From Myxococcaceae bacterium (GTDB lineage Bacteria > Myxococcota > Myxococcia > Myxococcales > Myxococcaceae), in assembly GCA_025459425.1 (NCBI GenBank), contig JALOQF010000010.1, positions 1-59,063 on the forward strand: DNA of 59,063 nt, read 5' to 3'. The notes below the pieces were generated by a model, which made no database searches, was not told where the DNA came from, and saw only the letters and a program-made list of their open reading frames with translations. The first letter of the stretch is position 1. Each line of letters begins with the position of its first letter. Shown here piece by piece: positions 2,021-12,078 of the stretch. The position numbers were made by a program, and so were the translations under genes.

Positions 2021-2024
<4 letters not shown>

Positions 2025-3424
2025 GCGGCGCTCCGCAGCGCCCCACCGAAGGCCGCGCGTCGCACGCGGGCCGCCAGCTCCGAGGGCGTGAGCGAGCCCT
2101 TGACGAAGATCTGCGCCTCGGCGCCGAGCAGCCGCTCCCGCTCCACCCCCTGGGGGTTGGTGGCCGAGAAGACGAGCACGGGCACGCGCGCGCCACCTGG
2201 CAACTGCCGCAGCTTCTGGAGCAGCTCGTAGCCATCGAGCTCGGGCATCATGAGATCGAGCACCAGCACGTCGGGCACGCGGGCCATGATGGCCTCGAGC
2301 GCGCGCTGGCCGTTCGACGCCTGCCGAACCGCGATGCCCTGCGACTCGAGGACACGGGCGAGCATCACGCGGGTGGCGTCGTCGTCTTCGGCCACCACCA
2401 CGTCGAGGCGCGGGGCGGGCGGCTCGAGGGTGGCCAAGACCCCGTTCGACGACGGGAGCGGAAAGCGCACGACGAAGCAGGTGCCCGTCGTGGTGCGCGC
2501 GTCGAGCTCGACCGACCCGCCCATCGCCTCGCACCAGCGCTTCACCAGCGCGAGCCCGAGGCCGGTCCCCGCGTGCTGCCGCGAGGTGGACGAATCGGCC
2601 TGCTGAAACGGCTCGAAGAGGCGGTCGCGGTGCGCGGGGGAGATACCCTCGCCCGTGTCGCGGACCTCGAGCCGGCACCACGCGCCGTCCCGCTGGGCCG
2701 TCACCTCGATGCGGCCTCGCCGCGGGGTGAACTTGATGGCGTTGCCCACCAGGTTGACGAGCACCTGCTTGACGCGCATCGGGTCACCGAGGGCCTTGAG
2801 GCCCGGGGCACAGTCGGCCGACACGACGAGCTCCTTCTTCAGCGCGAGGCCCTCGACGAGCGCGACGACCTCGCCCACCACCTCGCCGATGGCCACCGGC
2901 TCGCGGCTGAACGTGAGCTTCCCGGCGTCGGCCTTCGAGTAGTCGAGCACGTCGGTGATGAGCGTCATGAGGTGCTGCGCGGCGGCCCGCGCGTCACCGA
3001 GGTACTCGGCCTGGGTGGGGTTGACGGGGCCAGCCGAGCCGTCGCTCACCAGCTCGGTGAAGCCGATGATGGCGTGCAACGGCGTGCGCAGCTCGTGCGA
3101 GACGGTGGCGAGGAACGACGAGCGACTCGCGCGGGCCTGCTCGACGGCCTCTTCGAGCGTCGCCGCGCACGCCTTCCACGACTCCACCCGGCCCCGCTCG
3201 GCGACCAGCTCCGACTCGAGGGCCTCGAGGCGCCGGCCGAGGACCTCGCCCTGCCGCTGCGCCACCTCGCGCTCCTTCGCCAGCCGCGACTCGACCCGCA
3301 CCAGGGCCACGGCCGCGATGCCCATCACCACGAGGGCCGTCACCAGCGCAGCGGTCGAGCCGAGGTGGGCCATCGCCCAGATGAGCGGTGCGCCTCCCAC
3401 CACGCTGGCCCAGACCCCTCGCAT
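2021..3424 (-). CDS. Membrane-bound hybrid histidine kinase with C-terminal receiver
   Basis: This gene codes for 467 residues. Residues 8-43 are hydrophobic and probably form one or two membrane helices with no sizeable periplasmic sensor. A coiled coil (about 45-100) leads to the HisKA box FLATVSHELRTPLH with His110. The HATPase domain has the N-box NLVGNAIKF, DTGEGISP and GTGLGLALV. A receiver occupies the last 120 residues (VVVAEDDDATR, VLVLDLMMPELDGYE, Lys in FVKGS). The 3' end overlaps the next kinase gene by four bases, so both are made from one message. In myxobacteria such orphan hybrid pairs commonly form phosphorelays; that role is inference here. Confidence 0.88.
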
Positions 3425-6519: not shown

Positions 6520-7167
6520 TTACTCAGCACCGCCGGGACAACACCCGATGCCGCCGTCGGGCAAACAACACCGCGTGTCGTTTCCCAGGCACTGCACGTC
6601 GACTGGGGCGCGGCACTGGCCACCATCGAGGACGAAGGGACCCCCGCCTCCGAAGTCGACAGAACACCGGCCAGCGATGCAGGGGAAGACATTGCAGCAG
6701 TTGGCGCTCGTGGAACAGGTGTCGCCCAGGCCACCGCACATCACGACGGCCCCACCACCGGCCATGCCGCCGCTCGTACCACCTGCCGTCGCAGCGCCAC
6801 CGGCTGTCGGAGCCCCTCCGGCCGTCGCAGCGCCACCTGCCGTCGCAACGCCGCCTGCCGACGCCGCGCCACCGGCCGTCGCTACGCCGCCTGCCGCTGC
6901 AACACCACCGGCCGTCGCAGCGCCACCTGCCGTCGCAACGCCACCGGCCATCGCCGCACCACCCGCCGTCACGGCGCTCCCGCCACCGGGTCCGCCCGCT
7001 TGCGCGCCGCCAGCGATGGGGGCTCCGCCGGCCGATCCCTCCGCACCACCATCGATGAGCAGGGACTGCAGCTCGCCGTACGACGCATCGAGCAGCCCAC
7101 AGTTGCAGCCGGGTGACGCGATGGCGAAGGCCGCGAGCGCGGCGCCGATGCCCCAGGAGGCCCTCAT
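6520..7167 (-). CDS. Putative lipoprotein with GGAATA hexad repeats and Cys-rich C-terminus
   Basis: This gene codes for 215 residues. A hydrophobic N-terminus ends at SPGC21, a non-canonical lipobox, so lipidation is likely but not certain. Residues 69-130 are about ten near-identical hexapeptides (GGAATA, GGVATA variants). The C-terminal 75 residues hold twelve cysteines, including CSTSANCCNVFPC, RCC and GCC, spaced like the disulfide-rich dickkopf-like modules common in myxobacterial surface proteins. A cell-surface display module on a flexible stalk is the simplest reading. Its function is unknown. The start ATG 7167 gives a clean signal sequence; further upstream the reading frame is not protein-like. 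Confidence 0.75.
   Translation of the reverse strand: MRASWGIGAALAAFAIASPGCNCGLLDASYGELQSLLIDGGAEGSAGGAPIAGGAQAGGPGGGSAVTAGGAAMAGGVATAGGAATAGGVAAAGGVATAGGAASAGGVATAGGAATAGGAPTAGGAATAGGTSGGMAGGGAVVMCGGLGDTCSTSANCCNVFPCIAGRCSVDFGGGGPFVLDGGQCRAPVDVQCLGNDTRCCLPDGGIGCCPGGAE
6778..6963. repeat. 18-bp tandem repeat array inside the lipoprotein gene
   Basis: About ten tandem copies of an 18-base unit encode the GG-x-x-x-A hexads at residues 69-130. Because the unit is a multiple of three, gain or loss of copies would change stalk length without shifting the frame. Confidence 0.8.
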
Positions 7168-7216
7168 GCTGTCAGAAGACCACGGTCTCCGGGCGCGCGG
7201 AAGGGCCGGACGTCCC

Positions 7217-7696
7217 TCAGAAGCGCGCCTGGAGCACGACGGCCCCGCCGCCGGGGACGACGACCGGGGTGAGCGCCACGGGCTGGTGGCTGACCCCCTC
7301 GACGACGAGCCAGACGATCGACCCCACGACGAGCGCGCTCCCCATGGCGACCAGGGCAGTGCCCAGCAGCGCCTCGACCGAGCCGCGCTGGTGGCTCCGT
7401 TCACCGGCCTCGAGCAGCCGGAGTCGCTCGGCCATGCGCTGGGCGGGTGTCAGGCTCACGTACTTGTTGTCGGGACCCGGCGCCGGGTCGACGAGGAGCC
7501 GCGCGTCGGCGACGTACCCCTCGAGCTCACGCGTCCTGGCGCCCGCCTCCGAGAGCTGCCAGGCCCCAAGCCCGACCCCGACGAGGCCCACGAGGCCGAC
7601 GATCGCCGGCTCGAGGTTGAAGCGCGCGCGCGGCGCAACCGGGGTCGCCCCCGACGCGATGGCCACTGCCAGCAGAAACGCCGTCACGCCAGTCAC
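7217..7696 (-). CDS. Putative membrane protein
   Basis: This gene codes for 159 residues. The N-terminus (MTGVTAFLLAVAIASG) resembles a signal peptide. It is followed by a hydrophobic segment (about 30-46), a charged middle containing LTPAQRMAERLRLLEAGERS, and a second membrane segment (about 110-133). Two helices flanking a polar loop are visible. I do not recognise the family. It lies 49 bases upstream of the Cys-rich lipoprotein gene and 49 bases downstream of the TerB-like gene on the same strand, so it may be cotranscribed. Confidence 0.65.
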   Translation of the reverse strand: MTGVTAFLLAVAIASGATPVAPRARFNLEPAIVGLVGLVGVGLGAWQLSEAGARTRELEGYVADARLLVDPAPGPDNKYVSLTPAQRMAERLRLLEAGERSHQRGSVEALLGTALVAMGSALVVGSIVWLVVEGVSHQPVALTPVVVPGGGAVVLQARF

Positions 7697-7745: not shown

Positions 7746-8315
7746 TCACTTCGTGAACGCCTGCTCGAGCTTCTCGAGCACCCGCTTCTCGGCGGCCGAC
7801 ACGGCGAAGCCGGCGCCCAACAGTCCGCCCGAGGCCTCGGCGACGAGCCGGGCGCGACCGAGCACCTCGTTCTTCAGCAGCTCGCGATCTTCAGGCTTCA
7901 TCTTCTTCACCAGCTCACCGACGTAGTCGGCCCACAGCTGGTGCCACGACAGCTCGGGCTTCTCGTCGAGCCAGCGGGCCAGCAGCAGCGCGCCTTCGGA
8001 GCCGCTCGAGATGCCAACGTTCTCGGCCTGCTGCAGCACGACGCGGCGCTCCTTGTCGTCGACCTTCCCATCGGCCCAGGCGACCTCGACGAGGGGGAAC
8101 ATCGACATCACCAGCACCGCGGCGCCGCCCAGCTTCAGGTTCGCCAGCGCGTCGAGCACCACCGGGTTGCTGATGCCGGTGAGGCGAACGATCTCGTCCT
8201 TCGTCGCGGCGCGCGCCTGCTGGTCCTTCAGCTTCTGGAGGGCGGCGTCGTTCTGCTGCTTGAAGAACTGATCTTCGAGGGCTTTGCGGCGGTCGTCGAA
8301 CGCGTCGGAAGACAT
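7746..8315 (-). CDS. TerB-like domain protein
   Basis: This gene codes for 189 residues from ATG 8315. The first 70 residues are highly charged and helical (KALEDQFFKQQNDAALQ). Residues about 80-189 look like a TerB-type all-helical domain: the helix LVEVAWADGKVDDKERRVV carries the acidic D...D/E residues typical of that fold, and a second helix pair follows. TerB domains bind metal or membrane and are linked to tellurite resistance and phage defence, but many stand-alone copies have no known role. No tellurite genes are nearby. The domain call is by motif only. Confidence 0.6.
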   Translation of the reverse strand: MSSDAFDDRRKALEDQFFKQQNDAALQKLKDQQARAATKDEIVRLTGISNPVVLDALANLKLGGAAVLVMSMFPLVEVAWADGKVDDKERRVVLQQAENVGISSGSEGALLLARWLDEKPELSWHQLWADYVGELVKKMKPEDRELLKNEVLGRARLVAEASGGLLGAGFAVSAAEKRVLEKLEQAFTK

Positions 8316-8357
8316 AGGAGGCCTTTTTTCAAACGCCGTGGGGCGATTCAAGGCTCG

Positions 8358-8747
8358 TCAGCGAGCCTTCTTCTTCACGTCGACGGTGGCGGCCCGGAGC
8401 CAGAAGCGCAGGTCATCGGTGAGCCCACCCTTCTCGACGGCGGTCTCGACCGAGGTCGACAGGCCCAGGGCGAAGCGGGGGCGCTCTTCCTGCTCTCGCA
8501 GCACCCGCACGAGCTCACGCTGCAGCGCGGCGGGCACCAGGGTGACGTCGGGCACGTAGACGGTGCCGCGGGCGCCTTTCAGCGCGCGGGCCACCTGCGC
8601 GGGCTCCTTCACCTCGACGAAGGGCTCGCCCGGGAGCGCCTGGGCCGCGGTGATGGCGAAGGCGCGGCGGTCGGCCTCGGCGCCCCCGGTGAGGAGCATC
8701 GAGGCGCGGTTCTTCTTGAGCTGCTCCGGCGAATACGACGTGTCCAT
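8358..8747 (-). CDS. Degenerate NtrC-type AAA+ mini-protein
   Basis: This gene codes for 129 residues with an AAGGAG ribosome site six bases before ATG 8747. The order of motifs follows sigma-54 activators: RGTVYVPDVTLVP aligns with the Walker B block GTLFLDEI; LQRELVRVLREQE with LQxxLLRVLQE; and FALGLSTSVETAVEKGG then LTDDLRFWLR with the sensor I and REDLYYRL blocks. The Walker A loop and the GAFTGA sigma-54 contact loop are missing, and the Walker B acidic pair is replaced by Pro-Asp. It should not hydrolyse ATP or activate transcription. A dominant-negative or scaffold role is inference. It sits 10 bases downstream of the cyclase gene. Confidence 0.55.
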   Translation of the reverse strand: MDTSYSPEQLKKNRASMLLTGGAEADRRAFAITAAQALPGEPFVEVKEPAQVARALKGARGTVYVPDVTLVPAALQRELVRVLREQEERPRFALGLSTSVETAVEKGGLTDDLRFWLRAATVDVKKKAR

Positions 8748-8757
8748 GTCGACTCCT

Positions 8758-10299
8758 TCAGAAGCGGCGCTGGGCCTCGAGCGACTCGTTGAGCGACTTC
8801 GTCACCTTGAAGAGCGGTACCGGCGCGGTCCGGCCCTTCACGCGCACGGGCGGCAGCTCTTCCAGCGGCCCGTAGCCGCGCAGCACCTCGGCGGTCCCGC
8901 CGCCGACGAGAATCTCTCCGGGGCCGGCCAGGGCGCACAGGCGCGAGGCGACGTTCACGGTGTCACCGATGCACGTGTACTCGGTGCGCCGCGTGCTCCC
9001 GATGCTGCCCGCGACGACGGGGCCGGTGTTGAGGCCGAGGCCGAGGTCGAGCCGCTCCGCGGGGGGACGCTGGGCGTTCCGCTCCTGCACCTCGGCCATC
9101 ATCTGCAGCGCCGCCGACACCGCCGACTCGACGTCGTCGGCGTGCCGAACTGGCGCCCCCCAGACGGCCATCAGCCCATCACCGAGGAACTTGTCGAGCG
9201 TGCCGCCCCACGAGAGCACCACGTCGGCCAGGCGCCCCAGCACGTCGTTGAGCCGCGCCATCACCTCTTCGGGCGGCAGCGTCTCGGCGAAGCCGGTGAA
9301 GTTGCGAATGTCGGCGAAGAGCACCGTCACCACGCGCTTCTCGCCCGACAGCGCCACGTCACCCGTGCGCAGCACCTCTTCGACCACCGCGTCCGAGGTG
9401 TAGCGGGCGAAGAGCCGGCGCATGCGCTCGGTCTGGGTGGTGCGCCGCAGCACCGTCTCGACGCGGGCGGCGAGCTCCTCCATCGAGGCGCCCTTGTGCA
9501 CGTAGTCGTCGGCGCCGGCCTTCAGCAGGCCCACCTTCTGCGTCTCGGCGTCGTTCGCCGTGAGGATGAGCACGGGCAGCTCGTGCCGGGGCCCTCCCTT
9601 GATGCGCCGGCACAGCTCCGCGCCGTCGAGCCCGGGCATGTCGAGATCGGTCAGCACGAGGTCGGGCTTGACCACGTCGAGCTGCTCGAGCGCGAGGAAC
9701 GGGTCGTTGAAGACCGCCACCTCGTAGCCGTGCGCGGTGAGGCCCTCTTCGACCAGCGAACAGGCGAGCTCCGAGTCGTCCACCACCAGCACCCGGCGGC
9801 CGTTCTGCACCGCGCGGACGTCGGAGCCCGAGCTGCGCCTCGGCGCGTCGGGCCCGGCGCTCATGCGCTGCTGGAGCCCCAGGGCCTCGTAGACCTGCTG
9901 GTGGGTGCAGGCCCCGACCTCGATGAGCAGCTCGCCGAGCCGGCGCCCGTCGCGCTTCTGCTTCTCGAGCACGTGCTGGAGCGCCCCCTCTTCCACGTAG
10001 CGAAGCCCGAGGAGGATTTCCCCGAGCGGCGGGCGGTCGAGCACCACCGTGTCGCCCCGCGCGATGGCGATGGACAGGGCGCGCTGCAGCTGCGGGCGGG
10101 TGAGGTACCCCAACGACAGGAGCGCCTCGCCCACGCGGGCGCCCGTGAGCGGCTGGAGCGCCAGCGCCTCCTGCACCTGGCCCTCGGTCACCAGGCCCAG
10201 CTCGATGAGGAGGTCGCCGAAGCGGCGGGTCGGGTCGATGCTCAACGCGCCCCCGATGTTAGCGCCCAATGCCTCCGTTGGAACCCCATGCGTGTCCAC
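8758..10299 (-). CDS. MshEN-like / receiver / class III adenylate cyclase fusion
   Basis: This gene codes for 513 residues if GTG 10299 is used; TTG codons at 10266 and 10242 are alternatives, so the start is uncertain. Four R/P-x-G-E/D-x-L half-motifs (about 26-49, 55-78, 91-114, 120-143) match the repeated 24-residue signature of MshEN domains, which in other proteins bind cyclic di-GMP. A receiver (about 168-290) has VDDS and phospho-acceptor Asp218 in [11 protein letters not shown]. The class III cyclase domain follows ([50 protein letters not shown]), with metal-binding Asp residues present. It probably makes cAMP in the cytosol under joint phosphorylation and nucleotide control. It lies 5 bases after the RMND1-like gene. 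Confidence 0.85.
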
Positions 10300-10304
10300 G
10301 CCGG

Positions 10305-11411
10305 TCAATGCCCCCGCACCTGGACGAGCGCCATGAGGATCTCGAGGAGGATCAGGACGACCACCATCAGCTCGAGGGTGAGGGAGCGATCGTGGTCCAC
10401 CTCGCCCTTGAGCAGCTGGTACGTCTGGAGCAGCAGCCGGTGCTTGCGCGAGACCTGCTCGGTCCAGTGCTTCACGCGGAGCTGCCCCACCGCGCTCTCG
10501 TAGACGCGGGCGAGGTACACGTCGCCGACGATCTTGAGGGCGTTCTCGACGCGCTCGATGAACTCCGAGAGCTCGATGAGCGTCTGCATGAGCTCGCGCA
10601 GCACCTTGCGGTACGGGCTGTAGAGAATCGAGCCCCTGTTCAGATCGATGCCGTCGTAGACACGGGTGAGCTCGGCATCGAGCACCGAGTCGTAGTACCG
10701 CAGCTCGAGCAGCTGGGCGTTCGCGATCTCGAGCAGGTCGACGATGTCCTCGCTCCCCGACGGCTCGTAGAGGAACGTCGCGTTCCACTCGCAGAGGGCG
10801 AGGTCGTTCGTGGTGTAGCTGTGGTGGTGCTCGAGCACCTCACGCGACTCGCGCGGCGAGAGCGGCCCGTCGGCGGTCTCTCCGAGGAGGAGCTTGGCCA
10901 GCGCGGGCTCGGCGAGCACCTCGTCGGCCGTCACGGCGCGGTCGAAGGCCTTCACGAAGAGCACCGTGTACTCCTCGTGCTGATCCCACAGGTGGGGCTT
11001 CTCGAAGGCCGGCTCGAGCTGGGTGCGCAGGCGGGCGATCTCGTCGCGGGCGAGCGCGTCGATGGCGCGGGAGTCGTAGAGCTCGTCGGCCAGCGGCGTC
11101 ACCTCGGCGAGCGTCTGGCCCGGTTCCAGCGGCACCCGCAGGGCGATGCCGAGGCAGCCGTGGTCGAAGAGGCGAAGGCCCAGCTGCACGTCGCGGACGC
11201 GCCCGAGCACCTCGAGCTGCCGGGCGCCGAGATCGGCCGCCAGCGGCGCGTTCGACAGCTGCACGTAGGCGCTGCCGGCGCGCGAGAAGCCCACCCGCCG
11301 CACGCCCGAGCCGGCGCGCGAGAGGAGCTCACGCGCCTTCTCGAGGTGAATCGAGTCGGCCACGTCGAAGAAGCGGTAGCAGATGGCCGAAGCGTCGGTG
11401 AGGCGCAGCAC
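10305..11411 (-). CDS. RMND1/DUF155 family membrane-anchored protein
   Basis: This gene codes for 368 residues from GTG 11411; a longer reading would run into the DTW gene. The protein has a long helical body with conserved-looking stretches ([45 protein letters not shown]) and ends in a single hydrophobic segment ([16 protein letters not shown]). This is the layout of the RMD1/Sif2/RMND1 (DUF155) family. Eukaryotic members support mitochondrial translation; the bacterial function is not established. The tail anchor would place the body in the cytosol. Confidence 0.75.
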
Positions 11412-11454
11412 GGTGAGCGAGTGTAGCCAAGCTCCGGCGCGTGTCCGACTTTCG

Positions 11455-12078
11455 TCATGAGAGCGGGCGCCAGAACGTGCGCTCGAAGGCCTCGCGCTTC
11501 TGCTCGTAGACACCGCGGGCCTTGAGCACCCGCTCGACGAAGTCTGCGTGGAGGCGCAGCAGCGGCTCGGCCACCTGGGGGCCCTCGAGCCGGCCCAGGG
11601 CCTCGGCGAGCGCCTCGAGCGTCGAGCGCCCCTCGTCGAAGGTGGTGTCGCGCAGCCGCAGCACGCGCGCCGGCGGCGTGTCGAGCTGGAGCCGCGGCAG
11701 GCCGTGCAGGCGCGGGAGCTTCGTCACCATGCGCCGCGTCTGCCGCCAGGTGCCGTCGATGACGACCAGCGTCGAGAGCTGCCCGGGCCAGGGAGCCGGC
11801 GCCTCGGAGGGAAACAGCATGGCCGCCCCCTCGAGGTCGGGGAGCCGGGCGTTCACCCCGGCGGGGTCGTCGTCGAAGTCGACGAACTCCAGGTTCGGCA
11901 GCGCGAGCCCCGCCACGCGCGCGGTGCCGGTCGACTTCCACGACTCGCGCTCGTGGCGCACCATCAGCACCTTCGTGCGCGTCGACACCGTGGGCAGGTG
12001 GGGGCAGATGCAGAACTCGGTGCGGATCCAGCAGCGCTGGCAGCGGCCGGGGAGATCGCTGGAAGTTCGGGAGCGCAT
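11455..12078 (-). CDS. DTW-domain tRNA-uridine aminocarboxypropyltransferase
   Basis: This gene codes for 207 residues from ATG 12078; an upstream TTG at 12120 would add 14 residues without conserved sequence. The N-terminus has a CxxC...CxC cluster (RCQRCWIRTEFCIC) that probably binds zinc. The family signature DGTWRQTRRM is present, close to the canonical D-T-W motif. Members transfer the aminocarboxypropyl group of SAM to uridine (acp3U) in tRNA. The gene is divergent from lspA. Confidence 0.88.
   Translation of the reverse strand: MRSRTSSDLPGRCQRCWIRTEFCICPHLPTVSTRTKVLMVRHERESWKSTGTARVAGLALPNLEFVDFDDDPAGVNARLPDLEGAAMLFPSEAPAPWPGQLSTLVVIDGTWRQTRRMVTKLPRLHGLPRLQLDTPPARVLRLRDTTFDEGRSTLEALAEALGRLEGPQVAEPLLRLHADFVERVLKARGVYEQKREAFERTFWRPLS

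Follow-up and report, generated by a model that had tools for sequence, protein, structure and literature searches.

The locus described here raises the question of whether a single bacterial protein can read both a cyclic dinucleotide and a phosphorylation signal and pass them on to cAMP synthesis. The window, by which we mean the whole analysed stretch of 59,063 nucleotides from a Myxococcaceae bacterium, contains on its minus strand an open reading frame (10299 to 8758) for a protein of 513 amino acids with the layout MshEN-MshEN-REC-class III cyclase. The original prediction gave the gene a GTG start; an in-frame TTG at 10245-10243 lies near the start positions of the orthologs, and starting there would cost the cyclase gene no conserved residue.

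Identity of the N-terminal domains

The four half-motifs of the N-terminal half are arranged as two pairs of 24+5+24 residues each, which is the exact 53-residue MshEN unit. Domain A covers residues 26-78 (10066-10224, minus strand), with half-motifs at 26-49 and 55-78, and domain B covers residues 91-143 (9871-10029, minus strand), with half-motifs at 91-114 and 120-143, the spacer being five residues long in both. NCBIfam NF053729, a 53-position profile of the MshE-related c-di-GMP motif, scored 90 bits on the 513-residue protein (E 5.8e-26), where the curated cut-off is 38, and a search of the genome gave two separate matches in the gene, at residues 26-76 and 91-143 (56.9 and 52.3 bits). 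Since these matches are distinct and both above the cut-off, the four half-motifs make up two MshEN units. A profile of 49 ortholog N-termini, compared with the PDB, matched T. thermophilus PilF (E 1.4e-20), the MshE-c-di-GMP complex 5HTL through domain A (E 4.5e-13) and PilF GSPII-B complexes through domain B (E from 6e-6). The match to MshEN profiles, which the original prediction had proposed as its own check, was thus obtained. Its description of four copies of the pattern R-x-G-x-L-L-x-x-x-G holds for residues 26-35 and 120-129 but not for the other two copies. In copy 2 (55-64) Ala stands where the first Leu should be, and copy 3 (91-100) departs at three places, with Pro in the Arg position, Ile in that of the first Leu and Arg in that of the last Gly. 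Gln49, Gln114, Gln143 and Asp218 are found exactly where they had been placed.

The fold is in line with this assignment. An AF2 model of residues 21-150 (pLDDT 84.3, pTM 0.50) consists of eight helices forming two four-helix units, and Foldseek ranked 5HTL first for this model, with an rmsd of 0.9 Å over 56 columns and a modest E value of 0.02. VIA-align superimposed domain B on PilF GSPII-B with c-di-GMP (Z 11.6, rmsd 1.3, 57 residues); as helical bundles with Z under about 13 may merely share a common arrangement, the MshEN fold call rests on sequence and fold together, and by sequence and fold the N-terminal half is two MshEN domains.

The Pfam scan of the 513-residue protein gave no MshEN or T2SSE_N match for this region, and only a sub-threshold FumaraseC_C match. 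Readings of the N-terminus as FumaraseC_C or as DUF4388 were rejected, both being below the Pfam cut-off, and in the fold comparison fumarase C-termini reached a Z of only about 7, under the MshEN rows. A resemblance of the MshEN units (residues 52-76) to the helical C-terminus of fumarase C is seen in both the weak Pfam match and the fold comparison.

Conservation of the ligand-contact residues

According to the accessible text of Wang et al. 2016 (PMC5013675), MshEN domains contact c-di-GMP by stacking of Arg, through the backbone of Gly, which reads guanine O6 and N7, and through the side chain of Gln. We followed these positions in an alignment of the window protein and 54 orthologs (55 rows) taken from 59 fetched loci, five of which were omitted because the fetched stretch started past the first motif. 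The motif Gly residues (G28, G57, G93 and G122) and three motif-end Gln residues (Q49, Q114 and Q143) are present in 55 of 55 rows, many of which are near-copies, so that this and the following counts are not independent. At the fourth motif-end position, where Gln is expected, the window protein has A78, and the 55 rows have Ala in 54, Glu in one and Gln in none. The Arg positions are more variable: position 26 is Arg in 8 rows, including the window protein, and Leu in 47, position 55 is Arg throughout (55/55), position 91 is Pro in 31 rows and Ala in 24 with Arg in none of the 55, and position 120 is Arg in 28, Lys in 26 and Glu in one. The turn Gly position of copy 3 is occupied by Lys, Arg or Gln in 54 of 55 rows and by Gly in one.

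When Arg at position 1, Gly at position 3 and Gln at position 24 are scored, neither MshEN domain has the full c-di-GMP consensus. Domain A of the window protein has Arg at position 1 in both halves (R26 and R55) and Gln at position 24 only in the first (Q49, not A78); domain B has the Gln in both halves (Q114 and Q143, in 55/55 rows) and Arg only in the second (R120, with P91 in the first). The key residues that the original prediction looked for in homologues are therefore kept in part, namely all four Gly and three of four Gln across the 55 rows, and the fourth Gln, the Arg of copy 3 and, where Leu replaces it (47/55), the Arg of copy 1 are not. In a receiver-cyclase tree of 57 rows the Leu26 rows fall in a 44-row clade (support 98/98), and the earlier branches of the family all have Arg at position 26. 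Domain A in the window's clade thus has two Arg, two Gly and a single Gln at these positions, and in the Leu26 clade the first Arg is missing as well.

The other MshEN units of the same genome provide a comparison. There are 19 matches, 17 of which are readable units (one misread and one overlapping match were left out), and in 7 of the 17, among them domain B, each half retains its Gly and its Gln; one of these seven has a 6-residue spacer. Another unit of this genome (L017) has the same PLG...Q/R-G...Q form as domain B. Both domains are also under purifying selection, with dN/dS in six ortholog pairs of 0.06-0.23 for MshEN A and 0.14-0.47 for MshEN B; the same pairs gave 0.17-0.29 for the receiver, 0.13-0.29 for the cyclase and 0.6-1.4 for the linker at residues 144-165.

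In the accessible text of Wang et al. (PMC5013675), single changes of Arg9 or Gln32 reduced binding at most about fivefold, changes of Gly removed the thermal shift, several domains with such substitutions were termed degenerate, and it was considered that perfect conservation of the motif may be unnecessary for binding. PilF GSPII-B is reported to bind c-di-GMP at 6 nM despite Lys and Leu at both Arg positions, and GSPII-C binds it with Pro335 as sole deviation; single Gln-to-Glu changes caused a 77- to 158-fold loss with affinity still sub-micromolar, and the double change abolished binding (PMC11731258, as far as its text was available). PilF GSPII-A is a non-binder; measurable binding, in a shortened construct, required the restoration of three positions, among them Ser39 and two Gln, and was lost once more when Ser was put back at one of the Arg positions (PMC12002112, likewise in part). 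Domain B, in which position 1 is Pro or Ala in one half and Arg or Lys in the other and the two Gly and two Gln are kept, resembles the known binders in its sequence. Given that Arg is replaced by Lys, Leu or Pro in PilF binders, and that the Gly and Gln of domain B are invariant, binding of c-di-GMP by domain B is plausible, and so is binding by the MshEN pair, which would occur mainly through domain B.

Receiver and cyclase domains

The receiver (residues 170-280; 9460-9792, minus strand) matches PF00072 with E 3.6e-26, and its D174/D175, the phosphoacceptor Asp218, T247 and K269 are present in 55/55 rows. A long helix, at about residues 273-298 in the predicted model, exits the receiver, and the linker at 281-317 (9349-9459, minus strand) carries a 13-residue stretch that is strongly conserved. 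The class III cyclase domain follows at residues 322-491 (8827-9336, minus strand) and matches PF00211, the adenylate/guanylate cyclase family, with E 9.4e-27, so that the succession of a receiver with Asp218 and a class III cyclase core is as first described. We take D330 and D374 to bind metal, K370 and D446 to bind substrate, and N449 and R453 to act on the transition state; D330 is present in 55/55 rows and K370, D374, D446, N449 and R453 in 54/55. In an alignment to solved cyclases K370 corresponds to Lys in 6fht, 3r5g and 1wc0, and to Glu in 2w01, a guanylate cyclase. From K370 we infer a specificity for adenylate, and with its receiver and cyclase residues intact the protein is a predicted class III adenylate cyclase. 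The full-length model had a pTM of 0.44, too low for conclusions on the domain arrangement.

Some related proteins (L048, L049 and L177), which are HisKA-REC-cyclase-like or REC-cyclase proteins, have Glu for the substrate Lys (GTIDEFIGDA/GTIIEFIGDA), which suggests specificity for guanylate. Two distant order-level matches (G008 and G068) were rejected as orthologs and left out of the alignments, since they are HisKA-REC-cyclase-like, with HisKA judged by eye, and have Glu at the substrate-lysine position.

Distribution and loss of the MshEN pair

The spread of the architecture was surveyed in 195 genomes of the phylum with an ortholog profile. The rows were counted by hand, and scoring was confined to each genome's best candidates, so that distant fusions may escape the survey. 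Within the window's family, MshEN-REC-cyclase was found in 82 of 96 genomes (80 full length, 2 cut short), REC-cyclase only in one (G151), and no ortholog in 13. Outside the family, MshEN-bearing matches were found in 0 of 99 genomes at the threshold used, and the best outside matches listed start at position 118 or later. The MshEN-MshEN-REC-cyclase architecture is conserved by descent.

The ortholog in G151 (L174, 2012-3133, minus strand) lacks both MshEN units and keeps the receiver, the cyclase and both the upstream and the downstream neighbours. In the receiver-cyclase tree it nests on a long branch within the MshEN-bearing clade (98/98 fork), and this position together with the shared neighbours points to a secondary loss of the MshEN pair as the most likely history. 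An artefact of a contig edge or of the reading frame was considered and rejected, as the receiver-cyclase frame starts directly past the upstream partner and tblastn found no MshEN remnant; the genome, a draft in about 910 contigs with 93% completeness and 4% contamination, keeps some room for an assembly error. The loss of the pair with retention of the receiver-cyclase suggests that it behaves as a detachable input.

Gene neighbourhood

The cyclase gene stands in a tight minus-strand row with genes for a 402-residue protein, a 129-residue protein and a TerB-like protein, in the order 402-residue protein, cyclase, 129-residue protein, TerB-like protein, with gaps of 5, 10 and 6 bases. The upstream neighbour (10305-11513, minus strand), 5 bases from the GTG start, belongs to no Pfam family, and its hydrophobic C-terminal segment is reminiscent, of the RMD1/YagE type. 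The 129-residue downstream neighbour (8358-8747, minus strand) has a weak likeness to a sigma-54-activator AAA fragment, and the third gene of the row (7746-8351, minus strand) a weak likeness to TerB/DUF533, both below the Pfam cut-off. Homologues of the 402-residue, the 129-residue and the TerB-like protein are present in 14, 17 and 5 of 18 ortholog loci, respectively, some of which end early. A universal-stress-protein gene lies further on in 7 of the 18 loci, and a T2SSG-like gene for a small, pseudopilin-type membrane protein lies directly 3' of the cyclase in 11 of them (L036-L045 and L047); the Pfam scan identified two T2SSG-like genes and one stress-protein gene, to which the remaining ones were assigned by BLAST. 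The T2SSG-like gene, the main circumstantial hint that the cyclase might be connected with pilus or secretion machinery, occurs neither in the window nor in the remaining 7 of the 18 loci, and is absent in the window's clade.

The window genome has 18 GGDEF and 38 cNMP-binding matches, which makes both messengers plausible in it. No cognate kinase gene was found adjoining the cyclase. The nearest kinases are two tandem hybrid histidine kinases with receiver domains, at 750-2003 and 2021-3424 of the window (both on the minus strand), beyond gyrA, and they may be the source of phosphate for the receiver. A protein that has a low-complexity Gly/Ala repeat stretch and no Pfam match is encoded at 6520-7404 (minus strand), in the interval from gyrA to the gene row of the cyclase.

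Proposed mode of action and alternatives

Our leading proposal, which we judge to have an even chance of being correct, is that the protein is a cytosolic dual-input adenylate cyclase, in which the MshEN pair senses a cyclic dinucleotide, the receiver is phosphorylated and both steer the cyclase. Of the cyclic dinucleotides, c-di-GMP would be the most likely ligand of the two N-terminal modules; domain B would be the likelier high-affinity site and domain A a weaker or structural one. Receiver D218 would take phosphate from a partner kinase, and both inputs would bias the helix and the conserved linker holding the catalytic dimer and so act as a coincidence gate on cAMP synthesis by the class III catalytic domain, which would work as a dimer. 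Class III cyclases work as dimers by family rule; for the 513-residue protein we infer dimerisation, phosphorylation and ligand binding alike, and the literature examined yielded no binding or activity data for it or its relatives. The dual-input proposal is supported by the eight invariant sites (the four Gly, the three Gln and R55), by the use of the same residues at the Arg positions (Lys, Leu and Pro) in the PilF binders and in this cyclase family, and by the purifying selection on both MshEN domains. It is weakened by the Ala for Gln at position 78, the Pro or Ala for Arg at position 91, the prevalence of Leu26, the altered turn Gly of copy 3 and the case of GSPII-A, where similar losses abolish binding (PMC12002112, in its accessible part), and also by the dispensability of the MshEN pair in G151 and the lack of an identified partner kinase.

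The same losses give room to the possibility, which we hold to be rather doubtful, that the MshEN pair no longer binds nucleotide and docks or dimerises so that the cyclase is brought to a type IV pilus or to a secretion platform, with the receiver as sole control. Neither domain having the full consensus and position 78 being invariantly other than Gln would agree with such a docking role, as would the T2SSG-like neighbour and the appearance of a complex of the Xanthomonas PilB N-terminal domain with PilZ among the structural matches. However, three of the four motif Gln and all four motif Gly are invariant, ligand contact is the only role we found described for those Gln in the accessible text of two studies (PMC5013675, PMC11731258), and the pseudopilin-type neighbour is not found in the window or in seven other loci.

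It is considerably less probable that the pair binds another cyclic dinucleotide such as 3',3'-cGAMP, each domain combining a near-canonical with an altered half-site. The half-site asymmetry is conserved in both domains, and cGAMP is reported as a messenger in M. xanthus (PMC8844925) and as a weak ligand of MshEN, at 330 uM (PMC5013675), in those parts of the two papers that were accessible. Against this, the Gly that reads guanine O6/N7 is kept in both halves of both domains, so that no sequence feature favours adenine. As each MshEN unit pairs one near-canonical with one altered half-site, a family-wide converter, gated by phosphorylation and passing a cyclic dinucleotide signal straight on to cAMP, could even have asymmetric 3',3'-cGAMP as its ligand in place of c-di-GMP, a reading we rate as highly improbable. 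An ordinary receiver-cyclase with a functionless passenger N-terminus, for which the MshEN-less ortholog at the same locus in G151 could be cited, is very unlikely, considering that dN/dS is similarly low in the MshEN and the catalytic domains and that 82 of 96 family genomes retain the pair.

Comparison with known systems

Control of the cyclase by the MshEN pair would mean that c-di-GMP signalling and two-component phosphorylation feed straight into cAMP through a single protein. Such control, if true, would also reveal a role for degenerate MshEN half-sites, with an asymmetric pattern kept in 55 orthologs and one natural deletion for comparison. In the literature we found the two messengers linked at the level of transcription, namely through the control of cyaA by c-di-GMP/FleQ in Pseudomonas putida (PMC8125075, in its accessible part). 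The original prediction called the converter unusual, which is true in part: the accessible text of Wang et al. 2016 (PMC5013675) lists receivers and adenylate/guanylate cyclases among the partners of MshEN, so that fusions of the same kind have been known since then. No assay of an MshEN-receiver-cyclase fusion was found in the literature on MshEN, on cyclases of Myxococcus xanthus and Stigmatella aurantiaca, or on c-di-GMP receptors and cAMP, of which few subscription papers were covered.

The motif pair of 24+5+24 residues is shared with the MshEN/GSPII N-terminal domains of V. cholerae MshE (5HTL) and of T. thermophilus PilF (GSPII-B, 8PDK, and GSPII-C), as are the profile and fold match, the invariant Gly and most of the Gln. 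In contrast to MshE and PilF, the MshEN domains of the cyclase stand in tandem without the C-terminal subdomain, domain A lacks one Gln, and the output is a receiver-cyclase and not an ATPase. Three receiver-cyclases of the phylum (L175, L176 and L179) share the receiver, the class III cyclase and a 13-residue core stretch with the window protein and differ from it in having no MshEN module. Stigmatella CyaB is likewise a receiver-cyclase and is not known to carry MshEN.

MshEN and a class III cyclase also occur in one frame in three Desulfobacterota loci (L103, 4720-6663; L105, 4855-6843; L126, 4984-6768). These proteins differ from the myxococcal one in having one N-terminal MshEN unit, a longer spacer and a membrane-bound sensor region, with no receiver seen, and they are independent fusions of separate design. 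L126, the one Desulfobacterota protein that was scanned, has a HAMP domain and a sub-threshold match to sCache.
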